Source of the DNA: Phycisphaerae bacterium
GTDB taxonomy: Bacteria; Planctomycetota; Phycisphaerae; UBA1845; Fen-1342
Direction: 5' to 3'
Assembly: GCA_022072445.1 (NCBI GenBank)
Contig: JAJVHV010000003.1
Coordinates: 197,204-261,203 of the forward strand
DNA: 64,000 nt
In this document: piece after piece, positions 16,036 to 49,677 of the stretch
How positions within the stretch are numbered: the stretch's first letter is position 1
Layout: each line of letters opens with the position of its first letter
Position numbers and translations under genes: made by a program
Notes under the pieces: generated by a model
Seen by the model: only the letters and a program-made list of their open reading frames with translations
Told to the model about the DNA's origin: nothing
Database searches by the model: none

Positions 16036-16641
16036 ATGGTCGTACGAACACCCACCACGAAAGTCCGGCGGCCCGGATACTCGGGCCTCGTGCTGACCGC
16101 CGAGGAATACCTGGCGCTGCCGCCCGATGGGAATCGCTACGAGCTGATCGACGGAGTGGTCGTCATGTCGCCGAGCCCGCGCAACACGCATCAACTCGTG
16201 ATGCTTGGAATCGTCTCTCAGCTTCGCGCGTTCGTCGTTGAACGCGGATTGGGGCTGGTGCTCGTCGAAGCGGACGTGGTGCTCGAGGCCCGTCCGCGGC
16301 GAAGAGGCAAGGTCTTCCGGCCGGAGATGCACTTCATCCGCGCGGAGCGCGTCGCGCAGCTCGGCGAGCGGACGCAGATTGCACCCGACGTCGTGCTGGA
16401 GGTGATTTCGCCCGAGTCGCGCGGCGCGGACGAGGAGACCAAGTACCGCGACTACGAGACCGCGGGCGTCGCCGAATACTGGCTGGTCGACCCGATCGAC
16501 GAGACGATGACGTTTTACCGGCTGCAAGACGGCAAGTATGCCGCGACGGCGGTAAGTCCGCTCTCCTTTGAAAGCCAGGCGGTTCCGGGCTTCAAGCTCG
16601 ATCTGGCGCGGGTTCGAGCGGCGTTTCATGCGCTGAAGTGA
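16036..16641 (+). CDS. Uma2 family endonuclease-like protein (DUF820)
   Basis: 201-residue Uma2/DUF820 protein of the PD-(D/E)XK nuclease fold. Visible family motifs: RYELIDGVVVMSPSP, the core strand-turn IAPDVVLEVISPESR, KYRDYETAGVAEYWLVDPID. In many members the nuclease acid sits in a P-D-x-x-F strand; here that spot reads FRPEMHF, which may still serve. The biological role of the family is unsettled, and it is often multicopy and near mobile or toxin genes. A TATAAT at 15955-15960 may be its -10 box. First gene of the accessory island 16036-19357. Confidence 0.88.
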   Translation: MVVRTPTTKVRRPGYSGLVLTAEEYLALPPDGNRYELIDGVVVMSPSPRNTHQLVMLGIVSQLRAFVVERGLGLVLVEADVVLEARPRRRGKVFRPEMHFIRAERVAQLGERTQIAPDVVLEVISPESRGADEETKYRDYETAGVAEYWLVDPIDETMTFYRLQDGKYAATAVSPLSFESQAVPGFKLDLARVRAAFHALK

Positions 16642-16726: not shown

Positions 16727-17554
16727 ATGGCCACTTCGGCAAACCCGCCGCTGCCGGACTACGACTCTCCGCCGGTGATCGAGGTCGTTTGCGGTTTCCA
16801 GTTTGCGCCCCTTGATCGCTTCTTGGCGACGAGCTTCGGGTTACTGTGGGAGCGTTTCAGAGCTGAGTACCCGATTTGCGAGCAACACCCTCCGTTGGTT
16901 CAAGTCACCGAGCGACTGGGGCAACCGATTGCCGAAGAGTCGCAGGTCGAGTTTTCGAGTGAGTTTCCATTGCCGCGGATCTTCTTCGTGCATCGGTCGC
17001 CCTGTTGGCTGATTCAGGTACAAAACGATCGATTTCTTCACAATTGGCGCAAGCAAGACGAAGCAGACGCGTATCCCCGTTTTCCCGAGGTTTTCGGGAA
17101 GTTTTGGGCGGCATGGGAGCAGTTTCTCCGATTCTGTGACGACGAGAAGCTCGGGACACCGCGGCTGAACCAGCTCGAGGTAACGTACATCAATCACGTT
17201 GTGCAAGGCGAAGGCTGGGACGGAATGGATACGATCGGCGGTGTCTTTCCGGATATTGGATGGCGGACCCCGCGTTCGTTCCTGCCAACGCTCGAGTCGG
17301 TCAATTGGACGGCCAGTTTTGCCCTGCCGGAAACTACCGGCCGGCTTCACGCATCGGTGCGTCACGCCGTCAGGCGTCGGGACTCCCGGGCAGTCCTCTT
17401 GTGCGAGCTCACGGCCCGCGGTCTACCAAGGCGCCTCGATCACGACTCCGTTCGCAACTGGTTCCAGCTGGGCCGAGAGTGGATTGTGCGAGGTTTTGCA
17501 GACCTGACGGGCGAACGCATCCAGACGGAAATCTGGAAAAGGAGGTCGGTGTGA
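16727..17554 (+). CDS. TIGR04255 family protein
   Basis: 275 residues, matching the sporadically distributed TIGR04255 family. Motifs: N-terminal YDSPPVIEVVCGFQFAPL, central LIQVQNDRFLHNWRK, RLNQLEVTYINHV and the C-terminal NWFQLGREWIVRGFADLT. No enzyme activity is known, and no catalytic residues are evident. It ends in a GTGA overlap with the next gene, which is followed by a PIN toxin. Many family members lie beside such genes, so a role in a toxin-antitoxin or defence cassette is plausible but unproven. Its base composition is less GC-rich than the surrounding metabolic genes, as expected for transferred DNA. Confidence 0.85.
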   Translation: MATSANPPLPDYDSPPVIEVVCGFQFAPLDRFLATSFGLLWERFRAEYPICEQHPPLVQVTERLGQPIAEESQVEFSSEFPLPRIFFVHRSPCWLIQVQNDRFLHNWRKQDEADAYPRFPEVFGKFWAAWEQFLRFCDDEKLGTPRLNQLEVTYINHVVQGEGWDGMDTIGGVFPDIGWRTPRSFLPTLESVNWTASFALPETTGRLHASVRHAVRRRDSRAVLLCELTARGLPRRLDHDSVRNWFQLGREWIVRGFADLTGERIQTEIWKRRSV

Positions 17555-18012
17555 CCGGCGAGTCGCAAACGACGACGGTGGAGCGGGACTACGCCGACGA
17601 CCAGACCAGTGCTCGCCGATCGCTCGGATCGACACTTTCGCCAAACTTTCTTTTTCTGGGTGAACCGGCGGTGCCAAGACGGCAGCCGAAACGACGTGCG
17701 CGGGCAACCACTCAGGCGTGGGCACAAGCACCGCTCGGTTGCATCTCCGCAAGCATGCGGTCTGCCGTGCTTGTGTTTGCACCCGGCTTGACCAGGGTTA
17801 TGGACGAGTTCCCAGGTAGTTTCGAAGGACAAGGGAGCGCATCTCGTCAACCACTCACTGCTCCACGTCGTCACGAGCGGTACGCGCGGCTGGTGTCGCT
17901 GATCCAGTCGTGGCTCGCCGACGACTCGGATTACGATGAGACCGTCTGGCCGCAAGTGAAATCCGGAATCGAAGAGTCGCGCACGTCGTTTAGGAATCGA
18001 TTCAGTGAGTAG
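17551..18012 (+). CDS. Putative antitoxin paired with a PIN toxin; unusual N-terminal half
   Basis: 153 residues as read from GTG 17551, with GGAGG 5 nt upstream and a 4-nt overlap with the TIGR04255 gene. The last ~45 residues (RYARLVSLIQSWLADDSDYDE, then a W-P-x-x-K stretch) resemble C-terminal segments found next to PIN toxins. The first ~100 residues are low in recognisable structure and rich in Arg, Ser and Thr, so this half may be degenerate, mis-framed or started too early. It overlaps the PIN gene by 8 nt. The antitoxin role is inferred from position and size only. Confidence 0.55.
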   Translation: MTGESQTTTVERDYADDQTSARRSLGSTLSPNFLFLGEPAVPRRQPKRRARATTQAWAQAPLGCISASMRSAVLVFAPGLTRVMDEFPGSFEGQGSASRQPLTAPRRHERYARLVSLIQSWLADDSDYDETVWPQVKSGIEESRTSFRNRFSE

Positions 18013-18448
18013 CCGAGTCGCGTTGGACACCGGACCACTTGGGCAGATTGTTCATCCAAAGGCAGCGAGAGCTGCCGCGGAGTGGTTTCTCGCAATGCTC
18101 CAATCGGATTGCGACATACTCCTGCCCGAGATCGCAGATTACGAATTGCGGCGCGAGTTGATTCGCGCCGGGAAGACAAAGAGCGTTACACGACTCGACC
18201 AGATCAAGGAGCAACTCGACTACCTGCCAATTGACACACCCACAATGCTCAGAGCTGCGAATCTCTGGGCCGAGGCACGGCGTCGAGGCAAGGCCACGGC
18301 AGACAAACACGCTCTGGACGGAGATGTAATCCTGGCCGCGCAGGCCCAGCTCGCCACCGCAGACATCGCGACCGACAACGTCGGTCATCTCGACCAGTTC
18401 GTGAAGACGCGACACTGGCGCGACATGGGGTTTTCCGGCGCGGCGTAA
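18005..18448 (+). CDS. PIN domain toxin (VapC-like)
   Basis: 147-residue PIN-domain protein, expected to be a Mg-dependent RNase. Acidic residues of the active site are visible in VALDTGPLG (Asp near the N-terminus), LPEIADYELRRELI (Glu), and ALDGDVILAAQAQ and IATDNVGHLDQF (Asp). GTG 18005 overlaps the upstream gene by 8 nt, typical of coupled antitoxin-toxin pairs. It ends the TIGR04255-antitoxin-PIN cassette. The 18449-18604 gap to the next gene contains nothing recognisable. Confidence 0.85.
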   Translation: MSSRVALDTGPLGQIVHPKAARAAAEWFLAMLQSDCDILLPEIADYELRRELIRAGKTKSVTRLDQIKEQLDYLPIDTPTMLRAANLWAEARRRGKATADKHALDGDVILAAQAQLATADIATDNVGHLDQFVKTRHWRDMGFSGAA

Positions 18449-49267: not shown

Positions 49268-49677
49268 TGAATACCTGGTTCGTCGACTCATCGCACTACT
49301 TCGCCCTCCTGAGTGAATCGGACGCGCATCACGCGATCGCAAAGGAGTCGCAGGCCATTCCCCACCGCGTCGTCACCACCACGTGGGTGCTGACGGAGGT
49401 CGGCGACGGACTCGCGGCTCCCCACGCTCGCGGCTCATTCGTCGCGCTGCTCCGATTGCTGCGCAGCCACGCAACGGTCGAGATCGTGCCCGCCTCCGAC
49501 ACCTTGTTTGATCGCGGATGCCGGTACTTCGAAGAGCGTCCAGACCAGTCGTGGTCGCTGACCGACTGCATCTCGTTCGTCGTGATGGCCGAACGCGGTC
49601 TGCGCGAGGCATTGACTTCCGATCGTCATTTCGAGCAGGCCGGATTCGTCGCACTGCTGCGGAGGTCGGGTCGATGA
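49267..49677 (+). CDS. PIN domain toxin (VapC-like)
   Basis: 136-residue PIN nuclease. Acidic active-site residues appear in FVDSSHYFALL (Asp), TTWVLTEVGDGLA (Glu) and SLTDCISFVVMAERG with ALTSDRHFEQAGF (Asp). One-nt overlap with the upstream putative antitoxin supports a type II toxin-antitoxin pair. Its stop codon and last codons lie inside a palindromic repeat (49665-49683). Confidence 0.86.
   Translation: MNTWFVDSSHYFALLSESDAHHAIAKESQAIPHRVVTTTWVLTEVGDGLAAPHARGSFVALLRLLRSHATVEIVPASDTLFDRGCRYFEERPDQSWSLTDCISFVVMAERGLREALTSDRHFEQAGFVALLRRSGR

Follow-up and report, generated by a model that had tools for sequence, protein, structure and literature searches.

A TIGR04255–antitoxin–PIN cassette from Phycisphaerae and TIGR04255 as the probable control subunit of widespread three-part toxin systems

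Gene content and conservation of the cassette

Three overlapping genes compose the cassette, which lies on the plus strand of the window (the whole stretch of 64,000 nucleotides that was analysed). The first gene (16727..17554, ATG start, 275 aa) encodes the constant first component, a protein that belongs to family TIGR04255 according to its NCBIfam match (58 bits against a curated cut-off of 30). The middle gene (17551..18012, GTG start, 153 aa) encodes a putative antitoxin or adaptor without known domain, for which Pfam, NCBIfam, PADLOC and PHROGs returned no family match. The third gene (18005..18448, GTG start, 147 aa) encodes a putative ribonuclease toxin with a FitB/VapC-like PIN domain (Pfam PF01850, 27.5 bits against a cut-off of 23.6, E 5e-6). 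The first two genes share a GTGA start/stop overlap (17551..17554) and the last two overlap by eight nucleotides (18005..18012), so the ORF coordinates bear out the overlaps of 4 and 8 nt proposed in the initial annotation. PADLOC models matched none of the three window proteins, and relatives of these proteins gave weak matches only (E 0.006 or worse).

A gene of the Uma2 family (16036-16641, Pfam PF05685, 1e-31) is located on the same strand, 85 nt upstream of the cassette. Further upstream ORFs are taken here to encode lipid/biotin-type enzymes, and the ORF downstream presumably encodes a methionyl-tRNA synthetase; a defence island was not evident in these surroundings. The window's genome (5.25 Mb) displayed seven PIN genes in total. 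A second PIN gene in the window (49279-49647, Pfam E 3e-9) lies away from any TIGR04255 gene.

The acidic positions D8, E47, D105 and D107 of the PIN protein were invariant in nine relatives, and FitB was the nearest solved structure (family profile, E 1e-4). The middle protein could be divided into a poorly conserved N-terminal part of about 100 aa, without known domain, and a tail comprising the last ~48-50 residues (17860..18009, plus strand), whose predicted role is to bind the PIN protein and neutralise it. No DNA-binding N-terminal domain (RHH, AbrB or similar) was found by Pfam or NCBIfam. The tail profile, built exclusively from the last 50 residues of seven middle proteins of TIGR04255 cassettes, matched antitoxins that accompany the same PIN family in the absence of TIGR04255: one of DUF433 type (E 1.3e-11), a 466-aa ORF (E 2.1e-7) and two of RHH type (E 0.009 and 0.018). 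The best decoy, drawn from other gene-2 and gene-3 proteins and from window ORFs, reached E 1.3; another protein of RHH type (L045) could not be told apart from the decoys. The N-termini of these antitoxins displayed a FitA-like RHH domain in one case (E 1.6e-5, just below the Pfam cut-off) and DUF433 in another (E 3.5e-9), while the 466-aa ORF had no Pfam match. In the latter (L047:1450-3350, genome G079) the tail is fused to the C-terminus and the PIN gene follows directly 3'; we assume, from its appearance, that this ORF is methyltransferase-like.

Since the same tail occurs in TIGR04255-free antitoxins of the PIN family, it is regarded as the toxin-facing part of the middle protein, and the pair thus appears FitAB/VapBC-like, with an antitoxin that has lost its DNA-binding N-terminus. 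The earlier proposal of an antitoxin in the middle position is thereby supported. Judging by homology, the PIN protein is presumably toxic and neutralised by the middle protein, and the window unit is very likely a toxin–antitoxin pair to which TIGR04255 is functionally linked.

PIN proteins at least 59% identical to that of the window were found in four out of 114 genomes of the order (G000, which is the window genome, G006, G094 and G100), and all four displayed the order TIGR04255, middle gene, PIN. Overlaps of -4 and -8 were also encountered in SBAX01000346.1, JAJDDV010000034.1 and JAGMDK010000276.1, the public records of the other three Phycisphaerae genomes. TIGR04255 orthologues heading the same cassette were 63-68% identical, with a frame broken in the assembly of G006. 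For a fifth PIN gene (G077), located where its contig ends, the upstream gene falls outside the contig. In other families of the phylum, the window PIN family also followed TIGR04255 in G194, G316 and G453. The same order and overlaps in three other genomes, together with the presence of only seven PIN genes in the whole window genome, place the arrangement beyond chance, and chance neighbours were ruled out on the grounds of conserved gene order and overlaps. PIN relatives of 36-52% identity were located behind other antitoxins without TIGR04255, which counts against an obligate link. The fixed three-part unit suspected in the initial annotation therefore held for the four genomes with close PIN relatives and did not extend to the PIN relatives of 36-52% identity or to most TIGR04255 loci, which carry another third gene.

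Partners of TIGR04255 across bacteria

The survey comprised 133 TIGR04255 loci, mostly from one phylum and some related to each other, for each of which the next two same-strand genes were called and their proteins clustered. Gene calls were simple longest-ORF calls, and partner labels derived from the clustering. A recognisable partner set followed TIGR04255 in 118 of the 133 loci, in a compact arrangement in which gene 2 encodes an adaptor or antitoxin of poor conservation and gene 3 is exchangeable. Gene 2 overlapped TIGR04255 in 102 out of 118 loci (by exactly -4 in 42), and gene 3 overlapped gene 2 or started at most 20 nt away in 104 out of 117. TIGR04255 is not specific for the window PIN; the cassette represents one form of a broader modular class, which goes beyond what was initially suspected.

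The commonest third gene belonged to a family with a predicted ADP-ribosyltransferase fold (ART; 52 loci, assigned by gene 2 or gene 3), followed by a family here called QGD (19 loci) and a QGD-related one with an HTH gene 2 (six loci). DUF7689 was found in 10 loci (Pfam 2e-42 and 6e-40). Window-type PIN genes occupied seven loci and other PINs were assigned to 11, being clearly called in seven of these. Less frequent were HicA-like genes (four loci, weak, with Pfam E 0.03 and 0.11 below the cut-off), the metallo-beta-lactamase fold (two loci) and PemK/MazF (one locus, 2e-13). On a Vibrio parahaemolyticus plasmid (L186, CP063527.1, 158-2105), TIGR04255 was followed consecutively by a hypothetical gene and the gene for a zeta toxin (Pfam 3e-12). 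The remaining loci with a recognised partner set fell into other classes. Within the window genome alone, TIGR04255 occurred at three loci, each with another type of third gene: PIN in the window, DUF7689 at L001 and the ART type at L003, the latter assigned by gene 2 only.

At least three PIN families without meaningful BLAST alignment to each other occupied the third position. The groups were the window type, L055, L070/L111/L114 and L013/L117, the last two being weakly linked by BLAST, and each came with its own gene-2 tail. The DUF7689 third genes (L001:374-826, minus strand; L096:2670-3125) were accompanied by a conserved small partner, and their products are candidate toxins. Proteins of the QGD family, e.g. 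L053:6306-6902, displayed the pattern QGD...TQxCDL...PPYREHLSQAFARFFMRVGLP and matched phrog_4575 (E 2e-6), whose function is likewise unassigned; a PDB profile search gave no match for this family. QGD and DUF7689 third genes have no known toxicity, which counts against the tripartite toxin–antitoxin reading favored below.

Two further arrangements were observed. The Mycobacterium paragordonae plasmid of locus L183 (NZ_CP025547.1, 4983-6722) displayed TIGR04255 followed by two overlapping hypothetical genes, directly behind a MobF relaxase gene. At L131, L136, L141 and L153, TIGR04255 was followed by a gene reading as an M48-type peptidase and no toxin-like partner was present; these four possibly form a lone TIGR04255 lineage.

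Family TIGR04255 was detected in 66 out of 392 sampled genomes of the phylum, as well as in Desulfobacterales, Hydrogenophaga and plasmids of Mycobacterium and Vibrio. Two TIGR04255 queries found no relatives among GenBank phages. None of the papers searched named TIGR04255 or DUF7689; the family (sporadTIGR04255) has had no assigned function.

At least 14 loci displayed a PIN gene as gene 3, compared with ~0.2 expected in 118 loci from the seven PIN genes among ~4,500 genes (estimated) of the window genome. PIN-richer genomes would raise this expectation, yet not to the level observed. To assess partner exchange, 121 TIGR04255 proteins were placed in a quick maximum-likelihood tree and changes were counted on well-supported branches. 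The forced minimum was three changes for window-type PINs, three for other PINs, six for ART and seven for QGD. All labels jointly required 30 changes, against a possible minimum of 12 and 70.7 with shuffled labels, which indicates that partners were mostly co-inherited yet repeatedly swapped. The window clade was nested among QGD-type loci, and two other PIN families were represented in a neighbouring clade by L055 and L070.

Predicted structures and proposed role of TIGR04255

The AlphaFold2 model of the window TIGR04255 protein (pLDDT 94.8, pTM 0.91, 107 sequences) displayed the element order beta-alpha-beta4-alpha, then beta-alpha-beta3-alpha, an order resembling that of TBP. TBP was also the best PDB match in Foldseek (E 6e-4, probability 0.99), with low TM-scores (0.28-0.40), and giant-virus TBPs matched as well. 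With a structural aligner, guanidino kinases ranked first (Z 9.4, 4.2 A, 188 residues). The fold is thus predicted to be TBP-like and not obviously SecB-like. SecB homology was considered and rejected: no Pfam sequence match was obtained and SecB was absent among the 50 fold matches listed, although absence from such a list does not by itself rule out a SecB fold. A half-against-half profile comparison detected no internal repeat in the sequence (probability under 1%), so the reading of the protein as two repeats rests on the model.

The ART third-gene family, an unnamed group of ~140-aa proteins represented by L165:2058-2480 (minus strand) and 40 relatives, was modelled with pLDDT 89.6 and pTM 0.82. 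Foldseek alone gave no significant match; with VIA-align, nearly all listed matches were ADP-ribosyltransferase folds, headed by Tpt1/KptA (Z 8.9, 2.7 A, 94 residues), with DarT, Tse2, RES and MbcT below. R24, S56 and H110 were invariant. The predicted fold suggests that this is probably a new toxin family, whose members may act as ADP-ribosyltransferases.

Since numerous further toxin pairs from diverse bacteria also have TIGR04255 as their first gene, this protein probably serves as the control subunit in a widespread kind of three-part toxin system. The explanation favored here, with reasonable though not high confidence, is a tripartite toxin–antitoxin unit in which TIGR04255 would be the constant control subunit, either a sensor or a guardian of the antitoxin. 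The PIN protein would act as a FitB/VapC-like ribonuclease toxin, bound and blocked by the C-terminal ~48 residues of the middle protein, the N-terminus of which displays no DNA-binding domain. TIGR04255 would be made first, translation being coupled via the overlaps, and would keep the antitoxin active and stable, probably via the variable N-terminal region of the latter. TIGR04255 would be pulled off by a trigger, for instance a phage product or another stress, which would open the antitoxin to proteolysis and free the toxin. Elsewhere the same subunit would control other toxin classes.

The guarding and sensing steps are put forward tentatively. They follow from the logic of TAC and CmdTAC (see below), which the TIGR04255 class would display in mirror order; by this analogy TIGR04255 may contact the antitoxin and sense the trigger. 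A Gibbs search for a shared N-terminal motif in the middle proteins gave nothing clearly better than shuffles, and no general hydrophobic (ChAD-like) N-terminal segment was found, strong ones being encountered at L104, L111, L123, L140 and L145; the proposed contact consequently draws no support from sequence. Likewise, as TIGR04255 has no SecB sequence match and TBP as its best fold, a chaperone action would be an analogy only. That TIGR04255 founds a new class of tripartite toxin–antitoxin systems extending across phyla, in which a TBP-fold trigger subunit unrelated to SecB repeatedly adopted varied antitoxin–toxin pairs, is a proposition for which the case appears evenly balanced. Among the pairs so adopted would be those with toxins of several PIN families, of PemK, zeta and HicA-like type and, most prominently, of the new ADP-ribosyltransferase-fold family.

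The main rival to a guardian of the antitoxin is a DNA-binding regulator. TIGR04255 would then be a transcriptional autoregulator whose TBP-like saddle, sitting on the promoter, replaces the lost DNA-binding domain of the antitoxin, the antitoxin N-terminus serving as co-repressor. The Foldseek ranking of TBP, together with the matches to viral TBPs, agrees with this, as does the absence from the middle protein of the RHH or DUF433 domain found in TIGR04255-free antitoxins. The TM-scores to TBP are low, however, guanidino kinases match the model as well, and fold likeness proves no function; moreover, one subtype keeps TIGR04255 although its gene 2 has an HTH of its own. We consider such a regulator unlikely.

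A direct activation of the toxin appears somewhat less likely still. According to this proposal, the cassette would serve in defence: a ligand, either from a phage or a small molecule, would be bound by TIGR04255 in a helix-grip-like cavity, and TIGR04255 would then activate the toxin directly instead of guarding the antitoxin. The predicted fold does consist of two beta-sheet/long-helix halves, START/Bet v1-like ligand binders were weakly listed among its matches, the third genes are varied effector enzymes, and CmdTAC responds to a phage protein as its trigger (PMC11618068). On the other hand, none of the proteins is covered by a PADLOC model, a phage trigger is not known, the surroundings of the cassette display no evident defence island, and the antitoxin tail favors classical neutralisation. 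Finally, it is improbable that an ordinary two-gene FitAB/VapBC pair merely lies beside, or hitch-hikes with, an unrelated TIGR04255 protein of separate function. The occurrence of the PIN family without TIGR04255 and the poor conservation of the N-terminal part of the middle protein would fit such a pair; the -4 and -8 overlaps kept in four genomes speak against it, as does the fact that in many lineages TIGR04255 stands ahead of gene pairs whose toxins belong to several unrelated classes, with gene 2 so often overlapped.

A tripartite unit controlled by TIGR04255 would provide a widespread orphan family with a testable role. It also points to candidate toxin families, above all DUF7689, QGD and the third-gene family with the ADP-ribosyltransferase fold.

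Comparison with known systems

In FitAB/VapBC systems, as in the window unit, the gene for a PIN toxin overlaps an antitoxin gene in front of it, FitB being the nearest solved structure, and the antitoxin tail is common to FitA-like RHH and DUF433 antitoxins of the PIN family. In contrast to these systems, the window antitoxin lacks a DNA-binding N-terminus and the operon is headed by a third gene, TIGR04255.

The hyperpromiscuous antitoxins Panacea and NetFlax combine one conserved component with many toxin folds (PMC10440598, PMC8832971). The TIGR04255 class likewise displays a single conserved component across many toxin folds; the constant part of Panacea/NetFlax is, however, a domain of the antitoxin, whereas TIGR04255 is a protein in its own right, and the antitoxins differ according to the toxin.

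In TAC systems, a SecB-like chaperone binds a variable C-terminal extension of the antitoxin (ChAD), and such chaperones were found with HigBA, HicAB and MqsRA (PMC5105189). In CmdTAC, the chaperone leaves the complex on meeting a phage capsid protein, which leads to degradation of the antitoxin and release of an ADP-ribosyltransferase toxin (PMC11618068). TAC systems (HigBA1-SecB(TA), CmdTAC) and the TIGR04255 class have in common a single dedicated third protein that is combined with several toxin–antitoxin families unrelated to each other, and in both the antitoxin carries an additional variable region (PMC5105189, PMC11618068). They differ in that TIGR04255 matches no SecB model and has a predicted TBP-like fold, and in that it is encoded by the first gene, while the third component of TAC is encoded by the last. 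The variable antitoxin region is furthermore N-terminal in the window unit, the C-terminus being the toxin-binding tail, in contrast to the C-terminal ChAD of TAC. The best reading is that TIGR04255 systems would work like SecB-type TAC systems without being members of them. If TIGR04255 does control unrelated toxins via one fold, it would represent a second solution, beside SecB chaperones, for making a toxin sensor-dependent.
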